Shown: positions 22,628 through 63,032 of the stretch, piece after piece
Position numbering within the stretch: position 1 is the stretch's first letter
How the letters are laid out: the number at the start of each line of letters is the position of its first letter
Assembly: GCA_021292105.1 (NCBI GenBank)
Contig: CM037874.1
Span: 58,506,539-58,570,538, forward strand
Reading direction: 5' to 3'
DNA: 64,000 nucleotides
DNA from: Anadara kagoshimensis
Taxonomy: Eukaryota > Mollusca > Bivalvia > Arcoida > Arcidae
Position numbers and translations under genes: made by a program
The notes under the pieces: generated by a model
Databases searched by the model: none
Told to the model about the DNA's origin: nothing
What the model saw: only the letters and a program-made list of their open reading frames with translations

Positions 22628-25600
22628 ATGGCAGAAATAAAGCCACCGATCTTAATACAGGAGTTAATTCAGGCAAGTGAATACTATTTTTGTAAATTAG
22701 CAGTCTAAATATGTCATTATTTTGATTTTGTAACACTGTGTATGGAGATATATGTCTATGGTGAGGATGTTTGAGAAGTTACTCAACCTTATAGATAAAT
22801 TAAGTCTTAAAACTTAATTAGATTGGTGCAATTGGTTTATTATTTACAGAAAGAACGTGTTTTATTGTTTTCTAAATTTTATTTTCAATAATTTTGTTAC
22901 CATTTTCAAGTTGTTTATTATTTAAAAATAATAAATGGCTTTAAGAAAACATGAGGTGCCTATAGTTTTTTGTGAAAGAAGTGAAGACAGATTTAGGTTT
23001 CAATTGGGTGTTGAATTGGGCACCTTAACAACGTGCTATATTAGCGGCTTTTTTAACACCCGAGTCATGACATTAGACATCTATATTTCTGATCTGGTTT
23101 TCCTAAGTTTCCCATAATCCTGTTCCCACATATGAGAAATCTTGTACATACAAATTACCGTGGTTAGTCTTTGACAATTGGTTAAAATTCCATACCATAT
23201 GCCACTAATCTCTGCTGCACTGCTGACCAAGCGTAAGACTTCGAACTTCAGGATTCTCGGGTCATATGAAAATTTGCGGGTGAATAAATGGGTGCGGGTG
23301 TTATGCGGGTCATGGTCTTAATTTCCGGGTGTGACCCACACGATGCAGGTGACTTGAGAGCCCTGCCAAGGCACTACTCGTTGTAGACGAATAATGCTGT
23401 GACAAGAATAGGGCTTGAACTTTGGATATCAAGAACTGTAATATATTTTGTAAGTGTTAGTATTATGTTACCAAGTCACTGAGCTACCCAAACCATTTAA
23501 CCCATTCAGAACTTTTTTATCACATTGATTCCTAGGTAGGAATCTGATTAGATAGAGATCCTAGTGTAAGACAATTTGTAAGTTTCAACTTTGTTTAGAA
23601 AAGGTTGATGGTTATTTCAGACACTCTTGTTTCCTCTACCATAACCTAGGTTTCCACAAATTTGAAATAATTAGTAGCCAAATTTCCAAAATTTGTGAAA
23701 ATATAGTCCTTTTTAAAGTATTTTTCCACAAATTTGCTAAAATAGGTTACTTTTTGAAAGAATTTCTCAGAAATTAGTAGCCAATGGCGATTTTGGCTAC
23801 CAGGAATGGAAACATAGACCATAACTAACTGCCTTGATACAAGTACATGTGTAATAGAATCTCAACTGAGGTATAAGTTGTAGCCAATTTGATTCTTTTA
23901 CTGCATATAGAGACTCATATTAAAATTGTCTTACATTCTACATTATAAAAGCATGGTGTGATTTGTATGACATAAGTAACATATTTGAGGGCCATGTGAA
24001 TTTTTCTTCCAGTATGAAATGTTTTAAAAATTTTGTAAAGGCATGAGAAAGAAGGTGATAATATCCAACAGTCACACATAATGCAAATGTGCTGCCGAGT
24101 TAGCTACTCTGATATAACTGAGCTCATCACCTGAGCGAGAAATGATTAAAAAGAGTAAATACCTCAGTAATATATGTATATTTTATGATATCATCATTTT
24201 GAGAGAGAGAGACAGTATTATGAAAATACCTGTATACCTTAATTTTTGGAAAAATATTTTCCTGTTCTTCAAGGTGTTTCAGATTTTGTTTCTAATGGGC
24301 CAGCATCGTCCATTCAGATAGACATTGATGGCTTATTGTTTACACCAATCTTGACTATTGGTCATAAAAAAGAAAACATCTATAAAAATAAGAGGAATAA
24401 CTTTCACATATTTAAAATAAAAATATTAAGTTTATTATTACACAAGTAAATGTCAATTCCTCTATTTTTTTTAAGACATTGAATTGTCAATAAAATTAAC
24501 AAATTTGTGTCAAAAAGTTGATAAGCAAAATTGATCAATTTGTTTAAAAATCAAGGGCTTTTTAGGTTTTCATGTACAAGATGCAAATTTATTCAAACTT
24601 TCTGAATTTTAAATAAAATATTAAAAACATCCATGTCTCAGTAATGTATTTAAAAACAAACTAAGATCCTTTTGTCATATAAATATGTGCATTAAGACAG
24701 TTAAAACTTTGTTTACTAAGCGCGTAAATTGTAAACAACGGCTGTAATCTGTGTATGTTTACAAGGAAGTGTGTTGATATTAATATTAAAAAGGAGAGGA
24801 AATAAGCAGTTAGAATGACAGTAAATTTATAGCCACTTAACATGTTTAATTAATTACTATTGTCCTAAGGTTGAGATGATTTAAATTGATCATTTATGAA
24901 TGAGAAAAAACTACTGGTAAATACAGTTAAACTGGTATATAAAGACCATCAATGAATACAGGACTTATATGAAATATGAACTTTATAGACAGGTGGTTTT
25001 TATATAGAGATTCTTCTTATTTTCACAAAATTTTTGGGCTATTGATAATAATAAATTTGTAAAAAATCTAATCTTGTGTATACAATTTATTTAATTAAAT
25101 AATATTTAAAATAAGCGGGGGTTCTCTCTTATTCCCTGAAAATCCCACTGCCAATAACATCCCTCTTTTTCCTGCTTATTCCCACTTCAAAAAAGATGGA
25201 AAAATAAGGTATTTCCCTGAAAATCTTGTAAAGTCCTACTTAAAAGTGTCTCTAATTCCATGGATATCCAGAGAAATCCCTTTTATTTTCGCAGGGGTTA
25301 AGTTCCTCAATTAAAGTTTATTGTGACAAATATTTTATCTATGGCAAAACACACTTAGTTTAGTTTAAAGGTCACCGGTCACCAAATTTATCAATTTTGT
25401 ATTTTGCATTCCAATGGTAGAATAGTTAATATGTGATGTGTCCTGACGGTTTCCCACGCCTTACATTTACCTGCAATACACTAAAACCTTACCTGAACGA
25501 ACTGCTAATACTCGGTAGTTTCCGACACCGCTCGTAACTTTCCGGCGACCTAATTGATGACGTACATGGTGTTAAGCTGCTGAGGAAAGACACATTACCT

Positions 25601-26515
25601 ATATATGTATCCATATATTACATGTGGGTTTGTGTGGCGTTTTGACGGGTTTTAAAGTTTGATTTCAAGTCAAAATGCTATATTTTGTGACGTTTGGAGA
25701 TAATAAAATCACAATGACCGATAAACATGTTTTTTTTCCACAAATTTCAGAACAAATTAAAGCCAGATTTACACAAGTCCTTCATGCAGCTTTCTAATTG
25801 TTTTGAATGTATTCAGATTAAATATTACGAGATAAGTCAGGAAAATATGAGTGGTATAAATTATTATGAATAAATTCAGTCAAATAAATAGATTTTAAAC
25901 AATTTTAATTTTCAAAATTAATTTAATTCCGTAATTCATTCAGTTCACACGTTCAAACAAAGTCTTGTATGCCCTGTTCAAATTAACCAATCTCATTTAA
26001 CTTTAATTTATTCGATTTTCAGAATCCATCAAAAATGACAAATAGCATTTACTGGGTATATCATAAAGATAATCACACATGTCAATTAATGTTGCATATT
26101 GTAAGGTAAATTGTTGATTACAGGTGGTAGATGTCTACTTCTAAACAGGATGTTTCCCAATGGACTGTAGCATATTGATAATCTCTTAATTACTGGTATC
26201 TGAGGGGTGTAAATCACGCTTTGAATGATATTAATTTATTGTGAATAAATGTAAGAAAGTTACACTCGAGTTTTGAGTCCTTAGTTAGCTGGTTAGTTGA
26301 GCATAATCTCACTGGTATCACATTTTGACAAAGTTCTTTTCATCCCATTAAAATTAAAGCGTAATAAAGTTATTATATAAAAATTTTTATTATTTTTTTT
26401 TTCATCATGAAAACAGTGAAAATAAATGAGAATTAGAATTCTGATCAGTACTCCATCGGAAAATATCAACAAATATTTTTTTTTTAAATTACCCACTGAC
26501 GTAAACTTCAATTTC

Positions 26516-26554
<39 letters not shown>

Positions 26555-26757
26555 ACTTACTGCAAATAAGGAATAAGAACCTATTGAATTGAAATTACTT
26601 CCATATTTAAGTAATCCTGGGATGAAATATTTTATTTGAGAGACAATAAGAAGTTATTTTTAAACCTGTATTTTGATATTTTCGTTGTACAAAAAACTGC
26701 AGGTCTTGAATCTAGATTCTATCCGAAAACGTGTTCTTTTGATTAATTACATGGGTA

Positions 26758-26791
<34 letters not shown>

Positions 26792-27254
26792 CATTGATTT
26801 TAATCTAACTTGAAAGAAATTAAAAATGGGACACTTTCTAAAACAAATATAAATTAAAATCAATTTGAGGTCATAATATGGCTGTACTAGAGAGAAGAAA
26901 AGATTTTTTTAAATAAAAAACAAAAAATTGGGTTCTTTTTATTATTCCTTAGGATAAATAGATAAAAATAAATAAATAAATAACTTAATTAATTAATTAA
27001 TCAGAGATATGTAAAGATAATTAAAATGATATTAAATATTAATAAAAATTAATGTGAACAATATTTTAAATAAAAAACGGAAATTTGGGTTCTTTTATTA
27101 TTTGTTGTGATAAATAGATATAAATAAATAAATAAATAAATAACTCAAAGAGATATGTAAAGATAATTAAAATGATATTTAATATTAATGAAAATGAATG
27201 TGAACAATACGGAAATTTGGGTTCTTTAATTATTTGTTGTGATAAATAAATGAA

Positions 27255-27309
<55 letters not shown>

Positions 27310-27450
27310 CTCAGAGATATGTAAAGATTAAAATGATATTAAATATTAATGAAAATTAATATGAACAATATTTTAAATAAAAAACGGAAATTGGGGTTCT
27401 TTTATTATTTGTTGTGATAAATGGATATAAATAAATAATTAAATAAATAA

Positions 27451-27502
<52 letters not shown>

Positions 27503-30500
27503 ATATCAAAAGAAATGTAAAATTATGTTTTGTAAAAGTATTAGTAAATAGTATATCATACTTAGAGCAAACACAAATATAGTTTTTTTTCCTTATTTAT
27601 TTCTCATTATTATGTTTATTTTTTATTAATTTTTTTCTGCTGAAGTCAACTGAAATACCCAATGCTAAAAAATAAATAAATATGTAAAAACACTAGAAGT
27701 TATTTCCGAATAATCTGGGTAATAAATGCAGTTCACTATACAAGCTTCATTTACTAAATAGCTGGGATAACACCTTCTGCGTCACTTCCGGTTTTGTGCC
27801 CTTTTACTGCCAAAGGGAGATAACACAGTTTTTCAACAGTTTCAGGACTTTAATTTACGCTGTAGAAAAGGATAGAAATGATTAAAAAATGTTATTTGTG
27901 GCTAAATCGACTTTTTATGATGTAATCTTTCGGAAAATAGTACTAAAAAAAAATCGGTTTTTGGTGACCGGTGACCTTTAAACAATATTTATTCATCATT
28001 AAATACAAATAATATAATTCATAACAAACCTTAAACTGGATTCAGGAACAAGCAAAACACGTAACAAATTATCAGCATTGACTCCTATCTGTGTTTTTTC
28101 TCAGTTAATTAACTGCTAATTTTGTGATAATTAAGGTCTTCCTAATAAGTGTATTAATTGTTTTTTAACATAGAACTATGTTATGTTATTTACCAGTATT
28201 CTTCACAACTGGCATCTCTAGTCAGAGGTCAACCTTTATTCTTTTTTTTGGACTACCGGTAATTACAAACTTTGTCCAAAGTATATAGTTTTCTGATTTT
28301 TACTAATTACCTTTGAAAAATTTACCTCAATAATGATGCCCACTAAAGGCTACATTTGAAGCTGTTTGACAAACTTAATGACTTCATTTTTTCCATTGTA
28401 AACTTTCCTGTTCTGTTCAGCAATATACCTGCTTCTCCTGCTTATGGTGTATTTGTTTTACAATATATACACTATGGTAGAGCTTGATTTTACTATGGGA
28501 ACTTTCTACAACAAAGCAAACTTGTTGAGGCAGGGATTTTGAAAGCCTAGGCTTATCAGGGCCCTCAAAAAGTTTTGTGGTCGCCACCACAGTATTGTTA
28601 ATAAGTATGATGTCTCTATGTTCAAAATTACCATGGATATATTTAACGCCTCATAGTTCCATGTTCATTTCATTATCAATTTTCACTTCACCTGGCAGAT
28701 GTAGTTAGCTAAACAGTATGTGCTTATCCTTCCAGAGCACACAGCCTCACTTTCCTAGTGGAAGATCACATGTTTAACTTAATTTGCCAGTTTTAAAGTT
28801 TTTTTACTTTGCAAGTTGGGATTGTGAATCTGACATGGGTTGGTATATTTGTATTTTGTATTTGATTTGCCAGTTTCAGAATTTAGTAGCACATATTTTG
28901 GGTTTTTGTTTATTTTGGTATTTAGTAAAATCTGTTGTAGTAACCACATTTATATATGACTACCAGTCCATTAAGACTAGGATCCCTCTGCTTCATATTG
29001 CAACCAAAAAACTATATAAAGTCAATATTAGTTCCGTTAGTTAGTCTTTATATATACTAGTGATAGGAATCGGTTGCATTTTCATAATCGATTAATCGGT
29101 TATAATTGAAAGATGATTTTGATTGATTTTCCGATTATAATCCGTTAATAAATTGAAGTGGGAATTACAAAGTAAATTTGATTAAATTCTAATTTTTAGT
29201 CTTGATAATATCTGCAATATATTCATATCTCAGTTAAGACTTAAAATATCCTCCATTTTTCTGATCATTTACTCTTCCTTACATTTGTGTTAGTTTTCTT
29301 TTCCAAGTACACTTATTTCAGCTACAATTTCATACTTATTTTATAAGAGACGTTTGTCTCAGTCAGTGTGGAATCAAACGAACCGTTCCGTTTTTCCATA
29401 AACGAACGTCAGTAAATAATCGAAATTGATCGATTATTAGATATTAGAATTGATTATCACTAATCAGATGATTAGATATCGATTTAATTGATTAATCGGT
29501 CCAACACTAATATATACATGTTTAACTGTAATTTATTCTGTTTTTGTACAATCTATTTACAGTTAGCACACATTGGAATTCCATCTGACCAGGTGACATG
29601 GAATCGTGTCACTATGAATTCAGATCGTTGGATCGCAGTTCGTCATGGCAACAAGGAAGACAAGACAGCAATGGTAAGAGATTTTATTTGTTTTACAAAC
29701 ATTTTTCATTCTGTGCAACTTGTGATCTTTTATTAATATTTGACTATGTTTGTTTGGTCATGATGTAGAAAACAGGAAAATGTGTGATGATAATAGTAGC
29801 ATGTTGGGATTCCAGTTCCATGATGCTCTTGTCCCAAAAAAAATGAAACATTATAATACTTGGTTTAAGGGACATTTCTGGATTACTTAATATCTGTATT
29901 TATACCCCCCGCTTAAAAAGTGGGGGGAATATAGTCCGTCCGTGTGTCCGTCCTTCCGTTACACCTTAGGGTACCTATCTCTTATCCGCAACTCCTCCTA
30001 AACCCTTTAATGGATTTTCATGAAACTTTCACACAATCATTATGATATAATGCAGATGTGCACCTCTTATTTAAAAATTTGATCCAATGGATTTTTGGGA
30101 GCGGGGGGTATTTTTTGTGAGCTTGTGGCTCACAGTTTTTGTAGTTTATAATACATTTCCGGGAATAAATTTTAGGCATGCCTATTTCCGGTTTTGTTGT
30201 CAATGACGCATAGTCGCAAATACTGGGAAATTTGGTTGATTGCCAATATGCAAAGGGCAAAGTTTTGGTTGCGGTACCGGGATGCAATTCAGATGGAAGG
30301 AAATACCCCAGAAAATGTTCTTTCATGAAAGATATTATTTTTTTCACTGTTTCCAACTAAGAAAGACACAAAAAAAGGAGGAAATGGTTAAATGAGCCAG
30401 TGCATGCGAAAACCTACAACTTGGTCAAAATTTTCAAAATTGAGATTTTTACATATTATGAAAGTCCATAATGTTTTATACATGTAAACAAATTTTTAAA

Positions 30501-33500
30501 GTAAAACACAAATCCTAAAATGTAAAAATGACGTCATAAAAACTTGGATGACGTCACAATTTATTGGTCAAGTGTTCATGAGTGCTTTCAATTTTGCATT
30601 CAATTTTCAATACTCGAACATCGTTTAACAAAATGATTGTCACTCTTCCGACGGTGCTGGACATGTGATATCTTGATACATTAACCTGGCATGATCTAAC
30701 TGAGTTTAATCAGTATTTTTTTTTATTTTGTCGGTCTCTGCTTTATCGACTTGGTGCAACTTGATCTGGTACATGATCAACAGACCTCTTTACAAGTGTA
30801 AAGGTAGTCTTAGAACCATCGATATTACGAACTCTGGTCTTCATTTTTTTAACCGGGTTCTATAGTTGAAAATCTTAAATGTATTGGATGTTTCTGTTTA
30901 CAAATTCAGAATACTTATTACAGATAAATGTTATTACCTTTTTAAATCTCCCTACAAACTCAATATCATACCAACACCCACCATAAAGTTTAGTTATGAT
31001 TGGTCATTTTACAAGAAAAGTTGTTTCAATTATTAAAAATATTTTGTTTACAATTTTTGAAACCCATTGTATTTTATAATTCTTGACTTATGTGGTCATT
31101 TAAATGAAGCGCGTGCATTATAATAAATAAATAAATAAACTTCTTGAATGCACTGGTGCTTGTGCATTCCAATAAACATGCTATCGATTTGATACTTTGA
31201 TCTTTTATCGCAGTTAAATTTTATACTTTATTAAATGTGCTGATAAAAATTATCCAAAATAATACAGAACCGATCAGAAATGAGCTGATTAAAATAATTT
31301 CCTATCTTTCAATTCCCGATTTCTGGGTCCATAAAACACTGTATGCAATGCTTTTTATTGTTATATGCAGATTTTGTAAAAGTACTAGTATTCAAGAGTG
31401 CCAACATTGATCCGACAGCATTGGCCCTTTTAATTGCTCAAATCCTATAGAACTCCTGTCTATGAAGCATCGTGCATGTCCTGCAATCTGCATTTATTAA
31501 AAAGTGATTGCAGTGTTGAGTCCCGCCAAAATGCACCATTCGAAATAAGTCATTGTATACATATTTTTATTCTGTCTTGTAAAATATTCTCAATTTTTGT
31601 AATAGCAAACACAAACTGCTCTATATTTGAAATTCGTCCGTATCAGTGTAAGACATCGGAATCAATACATTTATTAAAAATAATAAATTATTAATAAAGT
31701 TCGGTACTGTTTGCCATCTTCATCCAGTGCCTGGTTCACGTCTATTAAGTGATTCAGATGCAATTGAAAACATAATAGTACATAAAAAATCTGGATTTTA
31801 CGGGTGTCAGAAAATAAATTGCACCCGCCTGTCTATCAAAATATGGTTTATTGATCGATTGATTAATTAACTGATTGATTGAAAGGCGATCTACGTCCTA
31901 GTTATGAATATTTCACTTATATCGAGGACGTCTCCAGCTATAAGTGAAGTAGTAGAATATTATTTTACCTTTGTAGTGTGTATGTTATATGAAAACATAT
32001 ACTCCTTGTACCATCTCCAGTGGTTTAGAGTGAAAAAAATTTGAATTGAATTGCCAAGTGCAATGTACAGGGAATATTTTTAACGATGCCTTCGATGATA
32101 CGGGTCATCGGTGTTTGTGGTCCCTTCCGAAGGACTCCGTGACTTTCATTTCTAAATACCGAGACCCTGTCTGAAATCGAACACACGACCTCTCACATAA
32201 GAAGCGTGCACTCTACCAACTAAGCTACTGTTGTATACATACATCCTGTGCGAAGTCAAAAGTAATATTTTGTTTTGGTACAAAGGCGCAACTGGTAAAC
32301 TTGGTATTGAGATTTTGGATACTTCTTCGTGTGTCTTTGTAAGACAGTTCTTAAAAACACATGTTCTTTTTTTACAAGAATGAGGGAAAAAAGAAACGGA
32401 AATTCTTTTTTTTAGAAAAGCTGCATTCCTTCTGTTTTGCCCATTATATCCAAAATTAAAAACAAAACATACAGATGTGGGCGTTTAATCAAGGAATGTT
32501 TAAAACGCCCTAATGCATTTCTTAGCATAGTATGCGCAAGTGACCAAATTTTTTTCGCCGATACAAAGTACATAGATACATGTGGTATTTAAAACAAATA
32601 GTTTATAATTAAATAGATAAAATTTAAACAACAATTATGAATAACATAGGCAAATGGCCCTTTATCCTTTTGCAAAACACGTTTTCTGATATATTTCATG
32701 AATTGACATCCTTCTGTATTGGTGGAATTTCACCTCGACCTCTAAGTGGGAAGGAAATGGCACCTCGTTCTCATCTGCATAATTAATTATGTAATTCACA
32801 ATTATATCAACGCCATTAATATTGATTAAGAGGCCGCGGTGGCCTAATGGATAAGACGTTAGTCTACAAATCCAGGGTCTCTCACCGCTCTAAGTTTGTG
32901 TCCCGCTTAGACCACATATGGGAAAGTGAATTTTCCTTGCTGTTGGCCTTTACTGGTTAACCTGGTATCAGTTAAATAAACTGGGGGAATGGTACAATTG
33001 TCTGCGGCGTACTTCGTGAGCTAGCACCTTAAACGTCGCCCTGAGTGCGCGCTAGTACAAGGCAGACCATACAACACACTCGCTCTTCAAATGCATACAC
33101 GAACTTGTTCATAGATTTATCCATAGAGATTAATAAAATAGTTCTCGTCGCGAATAGCTGAAAAATTGCTGATACGAAGTTAAGCAACATTCAACCAACC
33201 AAGCCATTAATATTGAAGTCATTGTGAGGTTTTTGAACCCTGTTCCCATGCGTTCTTGGATCATTTAAACTAGTCTTGACATGACGGATGACGAAGCTTA
33301 AAACAATTTCTCTGATGGCATACCGTATTTTAAATACTACCCGACAAATACTGTAGGTTTAAAGTGAAATTATGGTGCTATCTGTCTCTCTCCTCTCTCG
33401 TTTTGTTTGTGTTCTTTGGTTGTCTTATACTTTATACTAAAGGACCCTATCATGCAACCTTCCCGCTCCAGTAATTAATTAAAATTATGTAAAAAAAAAA

Positions 33501-36500: not shown

Positions 36501-39500
36501 CTGCATATGAACAGAAAGTCTCACAAGAATTTAAATTACTTTTTATTTACCTCACCTATATGATACATTAGGGCCTCTAGGTCCAATTTTTTATTATTTA
36601 AGGACATACAGGGTATTATTGTAATTCTTTCTATATGCTGTTTATGTTAATTACAGTGATCTAATTATGATACTGGTAATTAGGTTTTATATGGCTGGTT
36701 TGTGTTATTCTTGTTATTGATTTATAGATAAATACAAGTCCCATAGGAATTTGAACTATATTTTTCTGATTGAACTCCATTTGACCATAGTGGTCTAATG
36801 TTTGGATCATATTTGTTATACTTTAGACTTCTGTAAATATATTCTAGTATCTCAGATTAGTGGTTTTCTCCAGGCATTTTTGATATTCTCCATCATTCAT
36901 GAACTGACCACCTGGATATAAGTCAAATACACTTGATCTGGGTATAAAACACCATTACTCCAATCATACCACACCACACCACACCACACCACCCACACCA
37001 CACCACACCACACCGCACCGCACCGCACCGCACCACACCACTCCACACCACTCCACACCACACCACACCACACCACTCCACTCCACACCACACCACACCA
37101 CTCCGCACCGCACCACACCACACCACACCACACCACACAACATCACATCACATCACATTACACCACACCACATGACACAACATTACATCACATTACACCA
37201 CACTACACCACAACACATGGCACAACATCACATCACACCACACCACATCACACCATACCACACCACACCACACCACACCACACACACCACACCACACCAC
37301 ACCACACCGCACCGCACCACAACACACCACACCACAACCATACCACACCACACCACACCACACCATACCATACCACACCACACAACACCGCACCGCAACA
37401 CACCATACCTTACCATACCACATCACACCATACCATACCACATCACACCACACCACACCACACCATACCACACTCCTTTCCATTCCATTGCATGGCACTG
37501 ACTACACTCCACTGTCTACACTTGAGTCCACTCCACTTTCCACCTCGCTCCAGTCTACTCTGCTCAACTCTATTTCAGGTATAAAGGTTTAGATCTTATT
37601 AAAATTTCTAAAGTGAACATGATGAAGATATATTAAAAGGCGTAAAATCTATGCACTTAATTTACAAAAAACAAGTAAATAGTACCATACAGAGATAATT
37701 ATAAAGAAGCATCACAGAAGCAGAAGGAATTACTTACAACGATCTCTATCTACGTAAGAAAAGTTGATGAGCATTAGATGGTTTGTTAATTTTGATTAAA
37801 TGTTTTAAGTATGTATGGTGTTAATTTTGTAACATTTAAAGATAACTTTGATATGTGTTGGAATTAAAAACAAACCTATGATGGATGAATCAGAGATAGA
37901 GACCTGTGATAACTTTCTAGTCACTAGTATGTACTAAGCACCTGCAGATACAAGTGTTAATAAGTCATACAATGTTTATACCGGTATATTAACTTCAAAA
38001 GGAGAGGTGGGTTATTACAGTTGTGTTAATAGCATTGGATGTAGTTTTCAATGTCTTTCTCATTGCTATTTTATTACAACCAGAAATTAATATGTGTACT
38101 AATATATGACATCAGTACACACTTCACACAGAATTAGGTTTAATACAAGTTGGGTTTACAGTATTGAATAACGGTAGATTTGAATGTCTTTTTCATTACT
38201 ATTTTATTAGAACCAGAAATTTATACCAATATATGACATCATTACAATTCACACAGAAGGTTTAATATAGTATTGTATAATGGCAGATTTGAATGGCTTC
38301 GTTAGTATTTACTGTAAACCGCTTTATATTGGCGCATACTTATTTTAGCGATTGATGACTGGTAAACATATTAGCGCAGTTTAATTTTAGCGTAATCAAT
38401 TCCAGACTGAGACATATAATACGTCTTTATATTACCGCAACTTTTAGCCAAAAAAAAAACCAAAAATTTAAGAAGGGGTGCCAGTATTCGGCAAGTTACA
38501 GGAAAAAAATAAAAATAACTTTGTAATAAATGGTGTTTTAATTTGTTTGACTTTTACTGAGAGAAAATCTCGGTAAGTCACAAGACAGACAGTTGTCTGC
38601 AGGACGCTTGCATTATAATTTTGCGCTCTCGTCGATTACACATTTTACTGAAAACATATTTAAATCGACAATTACCTATTTTTCATTTAAATACCAACGG
38701 TTTGAATTTCAAATACAAATGTTTCGACACATTGTCGATGTAACCCCGATAATAGCCGCTTAGATCATTAGAGGTCAACAATGAGGACTTACAGGATGTT
38801 GCCGACCTCACAGAAAAAAAACAATTTCCGAGCAATGGGTCTAATTGTTGATATTCATTATTAGAATTTTAATTATTGAAGTCAATTACTGTTAGGTGAA
38901 CTGGTCAATTAAACTTCATTACCTGACAATAAGACTTGTCACAATGTAAGCATCACAATGACAATGATTAACATCACCTATTTTATCCGTTAATCCGCTT
39001 GTCGGTGGTCAGTTTATTTGGTCATTAATCCCTAATTACTTAACATACGTGAGGATATTGATGGAAGCCATACCACTATTTTCACACCTGTGACATCCTA
39101 TTATTTGAAAAGTGATTAAGTAACCATTCAACGTACGTTCATACCCGTTTTAAGCGCTGTACAGTACCTATTTAGTTTGAATTTTTAGCGACAGTTTTAT
39201 TTTAGCGCCGTCACTCTTATCGCCAATTGCGCTAAAATAAAACTGCCGCTAAAAAAACACGGTTTACAGTATTACAACCAGACTTGTTACCAATATTTAT
39301 CTAACATTAGAAAAGTTTTTCTATCTGATTTGACGAAATACATGTTTTATCGAACATGTATGATACAGAATCTTGTATCACCACAGTGTGGTGATACAAC
39401 ATTGGCAGTAAAGCGCATGTGCACTTTCTCATTGTTACGTCATCAGGGAGTCTTGACTTTGTCGGTCATAAATAGTTCAGTGGTTTTTTGTGGTAAAATG

Positions 39501-42500: not shown

Positions 42501-45500
42501 AATCGCCATACGAGAAATTTCTTTGAAGGGCGACAATCCAGCATATAGGGTGTCCCAGTATATACATCACACCTCTGCTTGAGACATTAAATCCAGTATT
42601 TTCTACATCACAGGTCACAGCCAAAAACTTGCCAGATTCAATGATTGCTCAGCAAGAGACATTTTTCTTATTTATATATTTGTATTTTTGCAGGTGACAG
42701 TTCTAAATCCTAGAGATGGTAGTATATCCTATGTTGGACAGACAAGTGCTGACTCGGTACAGATGAACCCAACAAAGCCACTCATAGCTTTACAAGGTAT
42801 GAATTACATGAACTTAATAATGAACTACCTCGGTTCCAACTTTACAATAAATCATTTTTAATGAAGATAATCCTTTATTGGAGAAAATTATGGCAATCTA
42901 GGAATGTACTGTATATTAATGATATTACAGTATTAAAAAAATCTACAGATGTCATATGTTCCTGAAAACATATACATGTATTTCAAAAATGTACAGTTTC
43001 AAAATTATTAAGACTGTTTGTGTGTTAAAAGTATAGATGGTGGAAAAAATTGCTTAGTTTTGGAAAATTATTAATTGACAAACTATATCACTCTAAGGCC
43101 TGGGAAAGTGAGATTTAAAGATTAGAGTAGGTCTTCCAATTTGGGGGGAGGGGCCAAATTATAACAACGCTGAAAGTCAGGAAAAAACTTTTCTGACAGA
43201 CTGTATCAGGTACCAGATTTATTTTGACGGTAGGAAACCATGCTAATTATTTTGTTCTTTTTTTTCAGCTGAATTGCGGTTTGAGGTGTTTAACTTTGAA
43301 ACTAAACAACTAATTAACAAAACAAAGTTATTTGAACGCGTGGTATATTGGACATGGTTGAACTCGGATATCATTGCCATGGTAACAGAAACTGCTATCT
43401 TCCACTGGGAATTATTTCAGGGTAAATATTGAGTTTTTATTCGCGAATGATCTTGATCATTCTCGAATGTAGCTGTTACATGCAGATTTCTCAACCCGAA
43501 TATTCTTCCGTTACAGAAAATAAACTCTCTCTGGTATGTAGGTCGAAGTTTGAATAAAGGGAGATAATTCAAATTTCAATAACTTTTGTATTCTATGGAT
43601 TTGATGGGTAAATTGTCATGTAAATGGGGTTTATTTATTGAGTAATATTGATTTAGTGAGAAATTGATACGAGATTGAAAAGAGAACGCTGCATTTTGTT
43701 GTATTTGAGGATAGAATATGTTGATGACGTCACGCGGATCCCCCTCCCGGTTAACAGATTTTCTTCCTTGTATATATTATAATCTGAAATCTGATTGGTT
43801 GAGATCGTCATCTTGACCCAGATGTTAGCTATTTTTAGCAGTATTTAACTTTTAATGGTTTTATCATACCTGCCAACCCTCCCGATCAGGGATTGAGATT
43901 AACGGGCGCCCAGTTTTTCGCTCTGGCGATAAATGTATCATACACAGGTCGCCCAGGGCTGCCAGGTGGCGATTAGAATTTTCAGTTCGGTGTATTTGAC
44001 ATTCCGATCCGTTTACCGATTTCCTGTTTATTTGACTGGCGACAATAATAGTAAAATTGAAAAATGGGTATCATATAGTTAACAAGTGTAAATGGACCGG
44101 TGTTCCGACCGGAATTCAAATACGGTGCCATTTCGTTTCCTTTTCTGATATTTATGTATAAAATGATACTTCCGGCTTTCTGCCATGTGTAAAATTTTTA
44201 GGAGCATCGACTCCAAAGGCTAAACAAGGACCTGCGGAAAAACGAAAGTACTATCAAGAGTATGATAAGTCCAAACGCATCGGAGCATATAAAAAACCAT
44301 GGGAAGATGGCAGGCCTTGGTTGTATGATACGCAGGACGGAATGAAGTGTGCCGATTGTGTAGAGTTCGACAGGAAAAAAATCTGTATTTACCGAGGGTT
44401 GCACTAGTTATAAACTTGACAGTGTAAATAAACATGACATTTCTGAATCTCACAAACAGGCCCAAGCCTTTAGTAATGCAAAACAAGTTCCTGCTAATAA
44501 ATCAAAATCTGCCAAAATTATACAGTCATTGACATTGGCAGTACCTATAGATCAACATTTTCTGCAAAACCATTCGTCAATGTAATTACAGATGTTGAAT
44601 ATCGAAAAGTAAAGCAAGGGATAGAATAATCCAAATGTATATGCCTGATATATTCAGATCAACCATCACTCTTGACAGTTCATGGTATGGCTCATCGAAA
44701 AGTTAAGCTCAATCCCTGCTGATGTGAGGAGTCTCCCCATATTAAGACAAAAATTTTGGAATTTTGTGCTATCATACTGCTTTTCCCGTTTTTCAAAGCA
44801 TTCCGTGAAGTCATCCTTAAAAAATTATAAATTGACTAGAGTGAAATCTGGGATAGCGATCACTTTGTAGAGTGGTCATCTGTCAACTACATTTTTATCA
44901 TGTACAGAACCTTTGTAGAGGGGTCACCTGTCAAACCCAGTCAGCGGGGATCCTAACGGCCACCCGATTGAAAAAATTGTTGTTTACAAGATTTACTAAA
45001 ATTATGCTGGTCTCGGGAATAAAAAGTCTTCCAAAAATTATCGAATTCTTAAAACACAACTCTGGTGATATAAATAATAATAAAATAATAGTTAATTTTT
45101 TCAAGTTATTAATTTATTTAAAAAATATCCTCAATTATGACATGAAAGATATCAGAAGCTTATTAGCTCACCTGAGCCAAAGGCTCAGATGAACAATTGT
45201 CATCTATCTTCATCTGCATGTCTTGTATAAACTTTTTAGCTCACCTGAGCCAAAGGCTCAGATGTGCAATTGCCATCTATCTTCGTCCGATGTGCGTCAT
45301 GTATAAACTTTTCACATTTTTTATCAATTCCTCCAAAACTACAGAGCCAAATTGGATGATATTTGACAGTAATGGTCAAGTAAGGGGTTTTCAGATTTGC
45401 ACAAATGAAAGGATTATGTCCCCTTGGGGCCCCATAAAGGGGAAATTTGTGAAAATCTGTAAAAATCATCTGCTCTGAACCTACAAGAGATATAACTTAG

Positions 45501-48500
45501 ATATTTCATGTAAAACACTATGGGCACCTAGTTTTAGATTTGCACATATTGTAGCTTTAGGGGCCAAAATGAGATAATGGCAAGGTACTTGAGGGGGAAA
45601 TTGCAAAATTAATGTATTTGTCAATATATTTGAAAACTATAAGCTTTTTGTATGGGCATCATCATCATGTGTATTGGAATACTGTAGGCATTTGCACAAC
45701 GGTCATTTTGATATATGAATAGAGGTCATAAGTTCAAAGGTCAAGGTCATAGATGTAAACGAATACTGAAATGGTTAATTATCTCAAAAACTTTGAACTC
45801 TTTGTGTAGGCATGTATATTAGAATATTGTAGGCATTTGCCATACGGTCATTTCCATATATGAACGAAGGTCATAGGTTCAAAGGTCAAGGTCATAGATG
45901 CAAACAAATACTGAAATGGTGAATTATCTCAAAAATGATAAACTTTCTCTATAGGCATGTATATCAGAATGTTATAGGCATTTACACAATGTTCATTTTG
46001 ATATATGAATGTAGGTCATAGGTCTAATGGTCAAGGTTATAGATGCAAATGAATACTGAAATGATTAATTGTCTTAAAAACTATAAACTTTTTGTATAGG
46101 CATATATGTTAAAATATTGTAGGTATTGGCCTAACGATCATTTTGATATATGAATGAAGGACATGAGTTTAAAAGTCAAGGTCACTGATGCAAACAAATA
46201 CTGACATGGTTAATTATCTCAAAAACTATAAACTTTTTGTATAGGCTTCTAAATTGTAGGTATTGACCTAATATTCGTTGCGATATTTAGATTAAGGTCA
46301 TGGGTTCAAATTTTTCTTTACCTTTTTAGTTGTTTATAAACAATATATTGTAGCTAGATTTCAGATATATTATATGTAGCACTCTTATGACTAGTTATGT
46401 TATAATAAATTTGCAAAAAATCCTTACATATAATTGGCCCTTACTGCTGAAAATTTATTTGGACATTCTCTTTAATTAATGTCAATGACCATTGAACCTC
46501 TGCATGAGACATGTACTCAGCTGCATGTGAGCATTAAGGCTCATGGACCTCTTGTTTAATATTAGGGTCTCCATGACGATGGAAGTAACTTTGACCATCC
46601 TTGATGGTTCCATACATGCATTTATTCGGATTGAACTATTTCCTACATGAATCCTTAATATTGGTCCAATGTGTGAATATTAAAACAGCCCCATGCTCAT
46701 AGTCTGCACATTGCACACTACATGAACCCGCTATGTTGTGTTGGGAGCAATGCAAGGTGAACATAACAACCTCCTTTCAGTTACCTGACAACTTCATATA
46801 CCTGACACTACATTGATGGAGACACTGAACTCCCTGTCTTTCTAATCTTTCGCGAATTTTAGTACTTTCAGTACTTTGATTATTGATTTACTAATGAATT
46901 TCTTGTCATCAAATTTTTCTTATTTACTAATATGTAGTTTGAATTTGAAATGTGTCTCTAATATTACATTTACCACTATGATAGCTCAGTTGGTAGAGTG
47001 CTGGCGTTATATGTGGGAGGTCATGGGTTTGAACCCCAGCCAGGGTCTGAACAAGACTTATAAGAAAATAAGTAGCGACTGTTCATTGCCAAGCACTTGG
47101 CATTTAGAAACGAAAGTCACGGGGTCCTTTGGAAGAGAGCTTAAAAACAGATTCCCCATCCTTTGACAAGTTAACTGACAAACTTCTTCACTGATCTTAT
47201 CCTCTTTTTTGCTTAAATCCATGTGTGTTAAACTTAATATGCTAAACCCTTTTAGTGTCTCTATGGTGATGCCATTTCTTTATATTTTTTTTAACAGATC
47301 GTTCACCAGAAAAAATATTTTTACGACATCACAGGTTAACATTTAGCGAAATTATAAGTTACAAAGCGGACCCAAGTCTAAAATGGATGGCTGTGACTGG
47401 ATTAACTCCTGAGGTATGATTATAAGTGGATCATGGTTAGACATTACAGACAGTCCATTTCAAAAGAAGTTCAAAATGGGAATTAATAGGATGTCAATAG
47501 ATTATGATGTCACTTGTTTTGTTGTCTTATGACATCAGTAGGATATCAACAATAGATTATGATGTCACTTGTCTTGTTGTCTTATGACATGAGTAGGATG
47601 TCAACAGTAGATTATGATGTCACATGTTTTGTTGTCTTATGACATCAGTAGGATGTCAACAATAGATTATGATGTCACTGGTTTTTTTGTCTTATGACAT
47701 CAGTATGATGTCAAGAATAGATTATGATGTCACATGTTTTGTTGTCTTATGACATCAGTAGGATGTCAACAATAGATTATGATGTCACTGGTTTTGTTGT
47801 CTTATGACATCATTAGGCTTTGGTAGTTTTTAATCCCAAAAGTCAACATTTGCATTTTTACTTCACAAATTGATTATATAAGTCTATCTTGTAAAGGAGA
47901 GTAGTCAGTACCATGTGTGTCCCTGTGGCAGGCTGGTAGAGGAAACATATTATGTCAGCGTGGGTTATTGGTAGAGGACACACATGCCTGTATGGCAACA
48001 AGAGGGTTAAAAGGTCTTTTTATGATGAAAAAACTTGTTATAAAAGTTAAACCTTTTCAAATATAATTGGTCTTTCATATTTACTTACAGGAGGATAAGA
48101 TATCAGGTTTGACTCAGCTCTATAACTGTGATGAAGATATCACTCAGTGTATAAGTTCTCATGCAATATGCTTCAGTGATTATCACTATGACGACAATCC
48201 ATCCTCGTCAACAGTAATGTGTGTAGCAAGCAGAGATTCTAACGACACTGGAAAGGTAAGCACTTAAACTTATCGTTAGTAGTCTTTAACTAGCTTCAGA
48301 TAGAGCTTGGGCTTTAGTGAGGAATACATCCACTCAGCACTCAGAAATAATAAAGTGTCTGTTACCATGGTGTACCTGCACTTTCTGCTAAAGTGGAACC
48401 ATGTTTGTCAGTCATCACTTTAATTATTTCAAAATACTTACACATTCTCTTTTTATGAGATTATTGATCTAATATTTGCCAAAAAATGAAAGTATGTCAG

Positions 48501-50847
48501 AGAATTTTTTTCACTTTTGTCTGTATATACAGTAGAGGATTTACTTAACACTGATGAGTTACTATAAAAAATAACACTTGTCCCAACAGGATTTTAAATC
48601 ACTGTGGTAGCTCAGTTGGTAGAGTGCTCACTCCGTTAGTGGGAGGTTGTGGGTTTGAGTTGCAACCGGGTCTGACCTAAGACTTGAAAGTGTATAGTGA
48701 CTGTTCTTTCGCTAAGCACTCCACATTCCGAAATAAAAGTCAGGGTTCTTTCCAATGGGAGCTTAAAATAAACAAGGTCCTGTGTCACGGTGGTCTTGGC
48801 AGAACCCTGCCATCAGCGCAACACACAGGCAAATTCCTGCATCTTCGCCTATAGCTGGAGACATCTCGATATAAGTGAAATATTCTTGACGGGGACGTTA
48901 AACACCATTACTTAACTTAACTCCAACAGGATTTTACCGATCTGGACGAGTACTAGTACCTAGATGTTTTATAACTTTATAACATTCTGTAAATTATTTT
49001 AACGTTGTTTAATGGTACATTATTACTTTTCTTCCAGATACATGTGATAGAACTAGGTCCCTATAAGCAGGGTAATTTTGCACCAAGAAATACCTATGAT
49101 GTCATACAGTTTATGGATGATGTCAATCGATATGACTTTCCTGTCTCACTGCATGTAAGTATAACATAAACAATGGTAAATGTTTTCTCATACATATTAT
49201 AAAATGACCTCCTTGTATGTTGGTAGCCAAGTGATTGAAAGTGCTGACTGAACAATCACTTGGTCTCTAATTATTAATACTATGCCTACGTTAAGGGACC
49301 AGGTGGTTGAGTGGTCAATCTTGCTCACTTGTGGATCACAGCACCTCTCGCTGACTCGGTTTGAACCCAGGAAAGGTTCTGTTGTGAGAAAGTTTGTTAT
49401 TTCACTTGCTAAAGGCCAGTGGTTTCTTGGCACTCTTGTTTCCTCCACCATGCCTGAACTGACTGTCTCGATATAAGTGAAAACACTCTTTACTGAGTGT
49501 AAAACATCATTACTCTTCTTCATTCCATTCCATCTTGTTATTGACCATTGGGCTCTCGGCTAGGCGCATTCGCAGCAATGTTTGTGCCCTGTTGTTGTCA
49601 TGGTTCTTTCTAACCTCATAATACTACAACCTGGAGATTTTTGACTGATTATATTTGATATAATCACAATTAATCACTTGGACCTTTTTCTTGGAACAGG
49701 TCTTGTCTTATTGCACTGTACAAATTTTTATTTATGGTCACCAAAATAAGGACATTTGCAACCGTGTTTGTAATGTTGTTGTCAGGGTTATACTAAGTAT
49801 GTGACAGAACAATACCAAAACCTGGAGATTATGACCAATCTACAATCACAATTAATCTCTTGGATTCTTTTCTTGGAACAGGTCTCGTCCAATTACAAAC
49901 TTTTATTTATGGTCACAAAATATGGACACATGTATTTGTGTGACATGGAAACGGCAGCCTGCCTATGTTGTACCAGAATCTCGCTCAGCATCGTATTTAC
50001 CTCAACGTTAAACAGCGAATCACAGGGCATTATGGGTGTAACTACCAGTGGTCAGGTATGACAGACATGTATTTTATTTCCTGTCGTAATTGTTGTTTTT
50101 AAGAAGCATTTACAAAAATATGAATGAAATGCAGTTTAAAGATTATACATTACTAAAATATATATTACACTTACAGTTTAGGTACTGTAAGCATATTTAT
50201 TTTCGCGGTGCACTAATTTTCGCTTATTTCGCAGTCGATTTTTTTGCGCGAAAATTAATACCAGGCAAAAATCATATTATGCTTATTGTGTAATAATGCA
50301 TATTTCAAAAACACAAAAATTTAACTATGCCAATATGTCTAAATTGCCTTTACCGCGAAAATAAATACACACAAAATTAAATACGTTAACAGTATTCAAT
50401 CTATGATTTTTCAGAGGGGCACATTTTTAAAAACTTTACATTTCCTCTTAAATGCCACATATCAATATTTTTGGCATTCTTATGCTGAATAACTAGTATT
50501 GTGAAATATAGCCCTATAAGTCCTTTTTAGTGGGACCATTTGGCAAAATGAGGATAAATGACCTCCATCCAGAATAAACACTTGGATGGCCTTTATAGAC
50601 AGGTTTGACTGTACATTGTTAGTTTTCCATGGAAACATTTTTTTCTCACCAATAACAAACTTTGAAAGAAGACATATTTCTCAAGTTTGGATAAAAAATG
50701 ATGATTTTATTAAATTTGAAAATTTTATGTTTTATGTTACAGGTCATGACAGTCGATATAAAGAAAGAAGGTCTAATTTCATATGTACGGGACACTGCTA
50801 AGAAGATGAATCAAGCTAATAGACTGGAAAAACTTATAGCTAGTTGA
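22628..50847 (+). CDS. Stand-alone clathrin heavy chain terminal-domain (beta-propeller) protein
   Basis: Nine exons: 22628-22672, 29563-29673, 42694-42796, 43269-43421, 47298-47413, 48091-48255, 49038-49154, 49882-50055, 50743-50847 (TGA). Every junction keeps phase; 362 aa. It aligns along its length with the first ~330-350 residues of clathrin heavy chain: MAEIKPPILIQELIQ, SADSVQMNP (family SADSAIMNP), VFNFETK, VTKYGHMYLCDMETAAC and GIMGVTTSGQV. After the last propeller strand the family continues into the linker and leg helices. Here the protein instead ends within about 30 residues in a polar helix (TAKKMNQANRLEKLIAS) and a stop, with an AATAAA 51 bp later. It therefore cannot trimerise or form a lattice, but could bind clathrin-box peptides or act as a competitor. 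Divergence from true clathrin is high, so it is an old paralogue, not a fresh fragment. Intron 1 uses a GC donor. Confidence 0.9.
24925..25015. repeat. Decayed CAGTCAAACCTG-type MITE fragment
   Basis: 'acagttaaactggtatataaagacc' in part, then 'ctttatagacaggtggttttta'. Right end lost. Confidence 0.5.
26516..26552. repeat. (ATT)n microsatellite
   Basis: About twelve ATT units inside the 2.6-kb element. A complementary (ATA)n run lies at 26758-26790. Confidence 0.95.
27245..27504. repeat. Two (AAAT)n arrays
   Basis: AAAT arrays at about 27245-27309 and 27425-27504, each expanded at the same place within the tandem unit of the 2.6-kb element. Confidence 0.95.
29062..29512. repeat. Possible hAT-type MITE with ATCGATTAATCGG motifs
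   Basis: It begins 'agtgataggaatcggttgca', ends 'attaatcggtccaacact', and is rich in 'tcgattaatcgg' and 'gattatta' motifs on both strands. The outer ends are only loosely complementary (AGTG..CACT), and I found no convincing target duplication. It ends 50 bp before exon 2 of the clathrin-like gene. Confidence 0.45.
29903..30147. repeat. Dispersed repeat 'CCCCGCTTAAAAAGTGGGG', copy 2
   Basis: Closely matches 9650-9897 over its whole length, in the same orientation. Confidence 0.85.
31895..32235 (-). repeat. tRNA-derived SINE (family 2), inverted copy
   Basis: On the minus strand: tRNA-like head (gtagcttagttggtagagtg), then 'gggtctcgg', 'gaaagtcacggagtccttcg', and 'atagctggagacgtcctcga'. Nested in the 3.9-kb element. 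Confidence 0.8.
32826..33202 (+). mobile_element. tRNA-Arg-like SINE (family 1) with 14-bp target duplication
   Basis: Head 'ggccgcggtggcctaatgga' with a tRNA-like A box and a decayed B box (gtttgtgtcccgc); tail 'caacattcaaccaacc'. GCCATTAATATTGA occurs at 32812-32825 and 33203-33216, a perfect 14-bp target-site duplication. It is inserted into the 3.9-kb DNA transposon and is therefore younger. Confidence 0.93.
33491..33517. repeat. 27-base A homopolymer
   Basis: Directly adjoins the tRNA-like sequence on the minus strand, where it reads as T27. Confidence 0.95.
33519..33607 (-). tRNA. tRNA-like sequence followed by T27 (likely pseudogene or SINE head)
   Basis: The minus strand reads 'ggtcgtcgtggtgtagtgga' (A-box-like), then about 45 bases, then a good B box, gagttcaaatccc. 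It runs straight into T27, which would act as a Pol III terminator. The acceptor stem and anticodon arm pair poorly and no anticodon can be assigned, so this is probably a decayed tRNA or tRNA-derived element. Confidence 0.4.
34829..35130. repeat. 72-bp tandem repeat with degenerate third copy
   Basis: Two nearly identical copies start at 34829 and 34901 (ctaatgtacttgccagtaat ... gataccatacaa). A diverged copy lies at about 35045-35115. Confidence 0.9.
35690..36600. repeat. Long-unit tandem repeat (about 120-170 bp, 5-6 degenerate copies)
   Basis: 'cacaggaatttaaatta', 'catgtagctcacc', 'aaaggccctcttg' and 'ttattgtaattatatct' recur in fixed order. The copies have diverged and vary in length through deletion. 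Confidence 0.85.
36859..36966 (+). repeat. SINE family 3 fragment leading into the ACCAC array
   Basis: 'gtggttttctccaggcattt', 'ctccatcattcatgaactga' and 'aaaacaccattactcca' match the 3' half of SINE family 3 (compare 49420-49530). The SINE tail passes directly into the pentanucleotide array. Confidence 0.7.
36967..37475. repeat. (ACCAC)n pentanucleotide satellite, about 500 bp
   Basis: A period-5 array of ACCAC with variants ACCGC, ACTCC, ATCAC and ATACC. The plus strand is almost free of G and the minus strand is runs of GGTGT. It is open in several frames on both strands because a five-base unit rarely makes a stop. Confidence 0.97.
38310..39271. mobile_element. MITE-like element with TACTGTAAACCG ends (962 bp)
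   Basis: TACTGTAAACCG at 38310-38321 is mirrored by CGGTTTACAGTA at 39260-39271. Sub-terminal 'ttttagcg' motifs (gcgcagtttaattttagcg on the left; gcgctaaaataaaactg on the right) are also inverted. No coding capacity. Shorter relatives are at 41766-41998 and 50175-50394. Confidence 0.8.
39373..39399. repeat. Perfect 13+1+13 palindrome
   Basis: TTGTATCACCACA, one base, TGTGGTGATACAA. Confidence 0.95.
39575..39735. repeat. 161-bp foldback element
   Basis: Arms of about 70 bp, from 'attatatacacagtgtgtat' and 'cacactgtgtatataat'-type ends inward through 'gtatcaggtc', 'cctttttt' and 'tatcactac', are nearly complementary around 'tcgttgtgcaagcgcga'. It is MITE-like and non-coding. Confidence 0.88.
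39837..39996. repeat. CAGTCAAACCTG-type MITE, copy 5
   Basis: Starts 'cagtcaaacctgtctatgaa'; contains 'gtaaaagtggcctttatgga', then 'aagcatgtgacctttatata'. In intron 2 of the clathrin-like gene. Confidence 0.85.
40170..40347. repeat. 28-bp tandem repeat, about 6 copies
   Basis: Unit 'aacatgaatttgcacaaatc' plus 'tcacacac'. Confidence 0.95.
41160..41455 (+). repeat. tRNA-derived SINE (family 2)
   Basis: Head 'gatagctcagttgtagagtg' with B box 'gggttcgaatcac', then 'agggtctgacc', 'gactgttctttcgtcaagc', 'gaaatgaaagtca'. This is the best preserved Pol III-like head of the family. A 26-bp internal duplication is present (tagcaagggtgacaagttaac twice in part). Confidence 0.85.
41766..41998. mobile_element. 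MITE-like element with TACTGTAGATCACTT ends (233 bp)
   Basis: 'tactgtagatcactt' and then 'tttttcgcgag' at the left; 'ctcgcgaaataaaagtgatc' and then 'tacagta' at the right. Together these form near-perfect inverted ends of about 27 bp. Confidence 0.88.
42153..42287. repeat. 135-bp foldback element
   Basis: Arms of about 60 bp (ttatacaggtctttggcagg ... against ... cctgccaaagacctgtataa) surround 'gtaccctgagctgcaggtgaagggtac'. Further 'catgtaccccggca' motifs occur at 42447 and 42480, suggesting a wider element to about 42500. Confidence 0.88.
43890..44620 (+). pseudogene. Decayed zinc-finger/hAT-like (ZNF862-type) fragment
   Basis: An open stretch from 44202 reads KRIGAYKKPWEDGRPWLYD, then GMKCADCVEF. 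After a frameshift near 44400 it continues as SYKLDSVNKHDISESHKQAQ. The W..DGRPWL, C..C and H..S..HK spacing is that of the N-terminal TTF/BED-like zinc finger of ZNF862-type proteins derived from hAT transposons. A stop then ends it near 44584. A CAGGGATTGAGA terminus-like motif (43896) lies upstream. It is a relic in intron 4 of the clathrin-like gene. Confidence 0.55.
44836..44962. repeat. Fragment of the 'gatcactttgtagagtggtc' repeat
   Basis: Two partial units ('actttgtagagtggtcatct gtcaa' in two pieces, and 'cctttgtagaggggtcacct gtcaa') related in wording to the 74-bp satellite and the CAGTCAAACCTG family. Confidence 0.45.
45163..46558. repeat. 1.4-kb 'AGCTCACCTGAGCCAAAGGCTCA' element
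   Basis: The head occurs twice (45163 and 45237), each with the small hairpin 'tgagccaaaggctca'. The body carries four or five tandem versions of about 170-180 bp ('aaggtcataggttcaaaggt caagg', 'ctgaaatggttaattatctc'). The tail is 'ggctcatggacctcttgttt'. No intact frame was seen; the origin (LINE 3' end or large MITE) is unresolved. A short relative lies at 13320. Confidence 0.75.
46972..47195 (+). repeat. tRNA-derived SINE (family 2)
   Basis: Head 'gatagctcagttggtagagt' and B box 'gggtttgaacccc', then the family body 'gggtctgaacaagac', 'gaaagtcacggggtccttt'. It ends about 100 bp before exon 5 of the clathrin-like gene. Confidence 0.85.
47490..47815. repeat. 55-bp tandem repeat, about 6 copies
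   Basis: 'gttgtcttatgacatcagta' recurs at a 55-bp spacing (47521, 47576, 47631 and on). It lies in the intron after exon 5 of the clathrin-like gene. Confidence 0.95.
48598..48935 (+). repeat. tRNA-derived SINE (family 2)
   Basis: Head 'ggtagctcagttggtagagt', B box-like 'gggtttgagttgc', body as in other copies, then 'gctggagacatctcgatata' and tail 'gacgttaaacaccattactt'. It is one of the longer copies, showing the full 3' part. Confidence 0.85.
49296..49535 (+). repeat. tRNA-derived SINE (family 3)
   Basis: Head 'ggaccaggtggttgagtggt' with B box 'ggtttgaaccc'. The body is 'aaaggccagtggtttcttgg' and 'ccatgcctgaactgactgtc', with tail 'aacatcattactc' passing into pentamer-like 'cattccattccat'. 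Confidence 0.8.
50175..50394. mobile_element. MITE-like element with TACTGTAA..TTAACAGTA ends
   Basis: 'tactgtaagcatatttattt' and 'tcgcgg' on the left; 'ccgcgaaaataaatac' and 'gttaacagta' on the right. Related to the elements at 38310 and 41766. Confidence 0.8.
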
Positions 50848-50897: not shown

Positions 50898-50903
50898 AAT
50901 AAA
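50898..50903 (+). terminator. Polyadenylation signal of the clathrin-like gene
   Basis: AATAAA 51 bp after the stop codon, supporting a true 3' end here, directly after the propeller. Confidence 0.7.
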
Positions 50904-60590: not shown

Positions 60591-60805
60591 CTTTCAACAA
60601 ATGGAATGCTAAGGAATCTTGGTCTTGATCAACAAAACGCTTCACAATGACGTATCGTCGAGTGCCCTGTTTCGGTGCGGGTCCACTTTCGGTGCCCTAG
60701 TTTTTCCGACATGCGTACTACAAATATACGGTGTTTTGACGTCATCAGAAGTTGTGTAGCGATTGTAAACATTGATTCAGAGGTTCTTCTCGCTCGTCTT
60801 GGAAA
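60591..60805. promoter_or_regulatory. Bidirectional promoter of IFT20 and the helix-turn-helix gene, copy A
   Basis: 215 bp between divergent start codons. It contains a perfect CRE, TGACGTCA (60737-60744), and a second CRE-like TGACGTAT near 60648. No TATA box was evident. I did not find a clear RFX X-box, which is often present in ciliary gene promoters. Confidence 0.7.
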
Positions 60806-60820
60806 ATGCGTCAAAAACAG
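60806..60820 (+). CDS. First coding exon of the helix-turn-helix gene, copy A
   Basis: ATG CGT CAA AAA CAG followed by gtaagt. Identical to 63375-63389. Splicing from here to 63850 would give the same protein start (MRQKQ|VNPQQ) with a longer first intron. Confidence 0.6.
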
Positions 60821-61582
60821 GTAAGTAATCTCAAAATATATTTTCAACCATATAAAATGTCTATTTTTAACTAACACCTATTTTTGCACTTTTTAAATAT
60901 CCCGTAAAATAAGAAAAAATGCAGTTTTCTGGGAAATGTACACCGTAGATGGAGAGGCTGTCGTCTGTTTTTCCTTGCCGATGGCCTTTACTGATTCACC
61001 CAGTGTCAGTATAATGTGACTGGGGAGTGGTATGCTTGTCTGCGGTGTACTGACTCAGTTAGCTAGCACTTAATTTCACCCTGAGTGTGTACTGGTACAA
61101 GGCATACAATAAAACACACTCACACTTCACATGCATACACAAACTTTTACATACATTAATCCATGGAGATTAATAAAGTAGTTCTATAAGTGAATAGATG
61201 AAAATTTGCTGATGTGGTGTGAAACAACAATCAACATCCTCGCACCACTTTGAAAATATAAACTTAACACAAAATCTGACATAATTAATTTTATCCTGAC
61301 AACAGTCTTTCAGTCATAGTCAAGGGGGAATAACTTGTGCATTAATGTGGTGTTTTTATGTTTTGTACAACACCACGTTACCAGTTCTTGCTTAGTTAGT
61401 TTTTCTGGGCAAGAATATGCTTTTAAATGTATTGTAAAACAATCATATTATTCCATCTGAACATTAAAAACTTCAACAAGCAATTTTATTGAATTAAGTT
61501 TTCTGGAAAATTGTGTTTTCATTAAATTGCAATATAAAATGTATTTTTATTTCAACAGCAGGACAAAAGAATAATTTTAGAT

Positions 61583-62809: not shown

Positions 62810-63032
62810 ACCCTTAACAACATGTACATAGTTTTAATCACTATTAAGTTTTTTTTTCACTTGCACGTCAAACTGCATACTTAAATCAAAACATTTTTCT
62901 TTATTCCACGCATGCGAACAGTATGTAATCTTCTATTAAGAAGGAATATTGTATATTGAAAGAAGAAGATATTAAATGGTCACTTTATGTTTGAAGATGT
63001 TTAACAAAAAATCGTGCATAAAAAATACAAAC

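Follow-up and report, generated by a model that had tools for sequence, protein, structure and literature searches.

A putative free-standing clathrin terminal-domain gene without a leg in the bivalve Anadara kagoshimensis

Background

Clathrin heavy chain (CHC) consists of a coat-building leg and an adaptor-binding head, and the question raised by the locus described here is whether the head can be kept as a gene of its own. The locus lies in a stretch of 64,000 nucleotides of the Anadara kagoshimensis genome (the window), in which a sequence-only reading had found nine exons encoding the N-terminal propeller of CHC and no leg, and had proposed that the product could bind adaptors or inhibit clathrin. 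A head-only gene would be a natural tool in which adaptor binding is separable from lattice assembly, and if the head alone has been kept long enough to drift to one-third identity, it would have a use of its own.

Results

Structure of the gene and of its surroundings

The nine exons of the sequence-only reading were confirmed at 22628-50847 on the forward strand of the window and join in frame to 1089 nt, including the TGA stop codon, encoding 362 amino acids (Table 1). Reading phases match at every exon junction, and an in-frame stop stands immediately 5' of the ATG. Splice sites are GT-AG at seven of the eight introns, intron 1 being GC-AG (exon end CAG, intron start gcaagt). The AATAAA that had been noticed 51 bp past the stop is present; since such a hexamer occurs in about 15% of the 80-nt stretches downstream within the window, it is weak support for the 3' end.

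Table 1. Features of the clathrin-propeller gene, with positions in the window
Feature	Position	Strand	Content
Exon 1	22628-22672	+	Start codon, amino acids 1-15 (MAEIKPPILIQELIQ); GC splice donor; intron position and phase equal to intron 1 of own CHC
Exon 2	29563-29673	+	Amino acids 16-52; next intron (phase 0, after amino acid 52) absent in own CHC
Exon 3	42694-42796	+	Contains SADSVQMNP
Exon 4	43269-43421	+	
Exon 5	47298-47413	+	
Exon 6	48091-48255	+	Arrestin-box L186, Q195 and I197 retained (human L183, Q192, I194)
Exon 7	49038-49154	+	
Tandem copy of the end of intron 7 and the start of exon 8	49620-49755	+	Unconstrained; coding part has 7- and 1-base gaps against exon 8
Exon 8	49882-50055	+	VTKYGHMY, GIMGVTTSGQ; 174 nt, equal to CHC counterpart
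Exon 9	50743-50847	+	Final 34 codons, then TGA; intron position at its start as for own CHC exon 8 (66 codons)
AATAAA, possible polyadenylation signal	50898-50903	+	51 bases 3' of the stop codon

The tandem copy upstream of exon 8 corresponds to 49811-49929, a stretch that spans the exon 8 acceptor, and 102 of 135 aligned positions are identical. It retains an acceptor-like ggaacag, the use of which would shift the frame. Intron 2 contains a long simple-sequence array (36908-37589) that translates as His/Thr/Pro repeats.

An IFT20 gene (56776-63159, minus strand) lies tail-to-tail with the propeller gene, about 6 kb downstream, and was recognized by the Pfam IFT20 model, above its cut-off in one frame, and by four exons in tblastn with human IFT20. 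A head-to-tail duplication of 2,574 bp (58399-60972 and 60969-63541; 99.96% identical, one gap) includes exon 1 of IFT20 as well as a reverse-transcriptase frame, and is either very recent or an assembly duplicate. A leucine-rich-repeat frame, below the Pfam cut-off, and an EF-hand frame, with EF-hand_6 above cut-off, are found at 1-6383 on the forward strand, and we take them to be perhaps parts of one LRRC74-like gene.

Identity and fold of the product

When the 362-residue product was compared with the sequences of solved structures, the best match (E 1.9e-69) aligned residues 2-353 with residues 2-348 of a clathrin heavy chain terminal domain, and each of the 18 matches with E up to 0.001 bears the name clathrin or clathrin heavy chain. 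The product is 33% identical (116/348) to the solved terminal domain and 34% identical (120/352) to the clathrin of the species itself. The Pfam model Clathrin_propel matched the spliced protein with 30 bits (cut-off 21.3); CDC20-type WD40 and Hira models also matched, weakly and below their cut-offs. Homology over nearly the whole product agrees with the claim of a complete N-terminal clathrin propeller followed by an early end, and the stop at codon 363 is close to the end of the isolated mammalian terminal domains that have been crystallized (357-369 amino acids). The single-sequence AlphaFold2 prediction was uninformative (mean pLDDT 35.7), so that the propeller fold of the product rests on homology. 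These comparisons support the view that the gene would encode a clathrin terminal domain as a free-standing product, without the leg.

Search for the leg

The linker, the leg repeats and the trimerisation region of CHC were not found in the product or at the locus. Using human CHC as query, tblastn revealed no credible leg exon in the window and 50 kb downstream, where the best non-exon match had E 1.5 in a frame that holds a stop, nor in the upstream direction as far as 50 kb ahead of the window, where the best match (E 0.065) was on the minus strand and its frame also holds a stop. Since tblastn detected only four of the nine known propeller exons in the window, the leg search was repeated with phmmer, which was run on the open stretches of all six frames between 22601 and a point 50 kb past the window. 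In this region phmmer recovered seven of the nine propeller exons at E < 0.5, and the best leg match had E 6.4.

The search was extended to the whole genome (1.115 Gb, 36 contigs). PF00637 gave 17 matches, 15 of them in the CHC locus and two below cut-off on contigs C8 and C16, and both matches of PF13838 were in the CHC locus. With these two models the genome shows no further leg or linker gene that passes the cut-off, in exon-wise searches that may miss diverged exons: PF01394, a 37-position propeller model, listed just two CHC exons and missed the propeller gene. The earlier claim that the gene lacks the triskelion leg agrees with both the local and the genome-wide results.

CLHC1 is a partial clathrin heavy chain relative that has linker homology and is not known to have a propeller, with a TSNAXIP1_N and/or a Clathrin_H_link domain. 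The product has three Pfam matches at E up to 1, and neither domain is one of them. TSNAXIP1_N matched the genome four times, twice on C19 and twice on C9, none of the matches being near the window, and a 40-kb stretch around the C9 matches gave no clathrin match in tblastn at E up to 5. No CLHC1 was identified in the genome from the PF13838 and TSNAXIP1_N matches and the C9 stretch. We rejected the idea that a second CHC split into a propeller gene and a separate gene for the leg, such as CLHC1, because PF00637 and PF13838 found no other leg or linker gene above their cut-offs. The two C19 matches (C19:2773457 and C19:1092594) are strong and perhaps paralogues.

The normal clathrin heavy chain and the origin of the paralogue

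The sequence-only reading had asked for a full-length CHC elsewhere in the genome, and one is present on the same contig as the window, 32 Mb away (C18:26.18-26.21 Mb), where tblastn matches span residues 15-1675 of the human protein with no gap between matches. The first eight exons of this gene were spliced for comparison, and its first 362 residues are 84% identical (304/362) to human CHC. The normal gene has seven introns in its terminal domain, and each of them recurs with unchanged phase in the propeller gene, six at an identical codon and one shifted by a codon in our alignment; an additional intron after residue 52 brings the propeller gene to eight. The introns common to both genes indicate that the propeller gene is a DNA-level paralogue and rule out a retrocopy. 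It arose at the DNA level, by duplication either of only the 5' part of a CHC gene or of a whole one that then lost its 3' part.

A genome search for further copies of the propeller gene, in which only the best candidates were scored, gave 16 matches: eight at the window gene (8/9 exons), five at CHC and three weak ones, two on C11 and one on C7. tblastn at E up to 1 did not recover the two on C11. Within this search of best candidates, the propeller gene appears to be single-copy. No relatives were found in viral contigs and prokaryote genome contigs.

To place the duplication in time, the propeller gene was compared with CHC of the species itself, of human and of yeast. Own and human CHC differ at 55 sites, and of these the propeller gene agrees with the own sequence at nine and with the human sequence at nine. 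The best tree of the four sequences sets the window gene outside the pair of own and human CHC, the alternative placements as sister to own CHC and to human giving p-AU of 0.024 and 0.089, respectively; the window-gene branch is long and the yeast outgroup distant, and long-branch attraction to yeast could yield the same placement. This suggests that the duplication may have been early, as a lead only, given that branch and that outgroup.

Signs of maintenance

Identity to own CHC is.50,.63 and.34 at first, second and third codon positions, respectively, against.27 by chance. The NG86 estimates against own CHC are dN 0.67 and dS 3.9, the latter being saturated. There are no stops, frameshifts or dead splice sites in the 362 codons, and all splice sites are usable. 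In neutral simulations, which introduced substitutions only, none of 500 copies was stop-free at any of five distances, even at the mildest, which left 66% amino-acid identity. The tandem echo of exon 8 carries frame-breaking gaps, whereas exon 8 itself keeps the length of its CHC counterpart, 174 nt. These tests, which are indirect and come from one genome, argue for a probable long maintenance of the propeller gene, and are compatible with a very recent loss of function. The earlier description of an old, maintained paralogue thus apparently holds, on the open frame, the simulations and the tree placement with its long-branch caveat.

Conservation of the peptide pockets

Four peptide pockets of the clathrin terminal domain have been described from structures in two papers, which supply 30 of the 31 residues in our pocket set (PMC5182127, PMC11543927). 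We added F27 to the set, and took the clathrin box as nine residues, five of them listed in the papers. Fourteen of the 31 pocket residues are identical in the product and CHC, against a background of 110/296 (37%) at sites common to own and human CHC (P=0.22), and 21 of 31 are identical or similar. At the sites that are also shared with yeast, the pockets keep 12 of 24 and the other sites 59 of 112. By box, 3 of 9 residues are identical in the clathrin box, 6 of 14 in the arrestin box, 1 of 3 in the W box and 5 of 9 in the Royle box, and no box stands out.

According to the yeast-structure paper, each of three boxes has an anchoring glutamine (PMC11543927). Two of these are changed in the product (Q89E and Q152E, human numbering), and Q192 of the arrestin box is kept, together with W164, L183, I194, H229 and I231 of the same box. 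Three of the five clathrin-box residues listed in the papers are changed (R64G, Q89E and K98L), F91 and K96 being kept, and a further pocket change is F9I. The interpretation offered by the sequence-only reading stood in part: a free-standing terminal-domain gene, with no leg found, old and apparently maintained, was recovered, whereas adaptor binding or clathrin inhibition was not established, the pocket residues being no better conserved than the others.

Discussion

The explanation that we prefer, with about as much confidence as doubt, is that the locus is an old, intron-bearing, partial CHC paralogue whose product is the seven-bladed terminal-domain propeller alone and serves to read peptide motifs in solution. 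The gene would be transcribed, and its product would fold like the clathrin terminal domain and stay monomeric, because the trimerisation and leg parts are missing. In solution it would then recognise short hydrophobic peptide motifs, with the blade 4/5 (arrestin-box) groove as the likeliest binding site and with an altered motif preference, because the anchor glutamines of the clathrin box and the W box are now glutamate. Such a product could not join a lattice; its role would then be to rival clathrin in binding certain adaptors or, separately, to act as a scaffold. A peptide-reading propeller of changed preference, with the arrestin-type groove as best candidate site, is the likeliest reading of these sequences.

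Several points speak against it. The pocket residues are not preferentially kept, either over the whole set (14/31 vs 110/296) or at the sites shared with yeast (12/24 vs 59/112), and intron 1 has a GC donor. The fold prediction from the sequence alone was uninformative, and the exon-wise genome searches may overlook diverged exons, as PF01394 did with this gene. A precedent comes from laboratory work, in which overexpression of a clathrin terminal domain truncated by a stop at T495, and hence lacking the distal leg, is reported to suppress the initiation of coated pits (PMC7480105); that inhibitory construct reaches residue 494, however, and the product has just 362 residues. Since a free head is reported to disturb coated-pit formation, a natural free head would be a candidate regulator.

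A bolder form of the preferred explanation, which we consider doubtful, is that a clathrin lineage without legs branched off before own and human clathrin diverged and has since been kept as a free peptide-reading propeller. The change of glutamine to glutamate in two of the three anchored boxes would have shifted its motif set, making it either a regulator built into coat-adaptor traffic or an arm of that traffic in its own right, one that was lost in vertebrates.

A serious rival, to which we give appreciable weight but clearly less than to the preferred explanation, is that the propeller is maintained outside the clathrin system, the fold being kept as a scaffold while the adaptor pockets drifted and the partners became unrelated ones. 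The pocket residues drift like the remaining domain, also at the sites invariant among human, own and yeast CHC, and the changes Q89E, Q152E, K98L, R64G and F9I fit such a loss; however, the residues that remain in the arrestin and Royle boxes (6/14 and 5/9) would leave peptide binding possible.

As a special case of the preferred explanation, the product could naturally inhibit contacts between clathrin and adaptors by competition, as had been suggested by the sequence-only reading. Part of the pocket residues are kept, and terminal-domain overexpression inhibits clathrin-mediated endocytosis, but the clathrin box is altered at R64, Q89 and K98, and the reported inhibition in cells came from overexpression of a longer construct (PMC7480105). 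A pure inhibitor is possible, to which the sequence lends no special support, and we regard it as rather unlikely.

It is less probable still that the locus is a recent pseudogene or a dying relic of a second CHC that is open by chance. The leg-encoding part was not found between 22601 and 50 kb past the window, and the GC donor of intron 1 would suit a decaying gene, but 362 codons free of stops and frameshifts, usable splice sites throughout, the best conservation at second codon positions and the failure of every neutral copy to stay stop-free all point the other way.

We give very little credence to a longer gene spliced alternatively from exon 8 to unseen leg exons, for although exon 9 begins at a CHC intron position, so that an alternative last exon is conceivable, and tblastn was not very sensitive here, the more sensitive phmmer search gave no leg match better than E 6.4, the best tblastn non-exon matches on either side hold stops, and the PF00637 and PF13838 matches fall in the CHC locus except for two below cut-off on other contigs.

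Comparison with known systems

The closest known relative is the terminal domain of CHC17 (CLTC), represented in this species by the copy at C18:26.18-26.21 Mb. The two are alike over the whole propeller, with 33-34% identity and seven common introns; in contrast to CHC17, the propeller gene stops early in the linker, no sequence for the leg or for trimerisation was found, and the clathrin-box and W-box anchors are changed. CLHC1 would be the reverse of the propeller gene, having linker homology and no known propeller.

CHC22 (CLTCL1) is full-length and known from vertebrates. In genomes that retain CHC17 it is described as an additional clathrin heavy chain gene (PMC6548504). The propeller gene resembles it in being a second gene of the CHC family beside a normal one, and differs in consisting of the propeller only.

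Laboratory terminal-domain constructs (1utc and others) are also free terminal domains and of similar size, 357-369 amino acids in the mammalian crystal constructs against 362 in the product. These constructs are man-made, and the terminal domain used in cells extends to residue 494 (PMC7480105). In agreement with the sequence-only reading, which knew of no described gene of such architecture, none with the propeller only was found in the literature searched, which covers part of the field; orthologues may sit in databases under clathrin-like names. The locus holds a clathrin terminal-domain paralogue without the leg, in a genome that also has a normal clathrin heavy chain.
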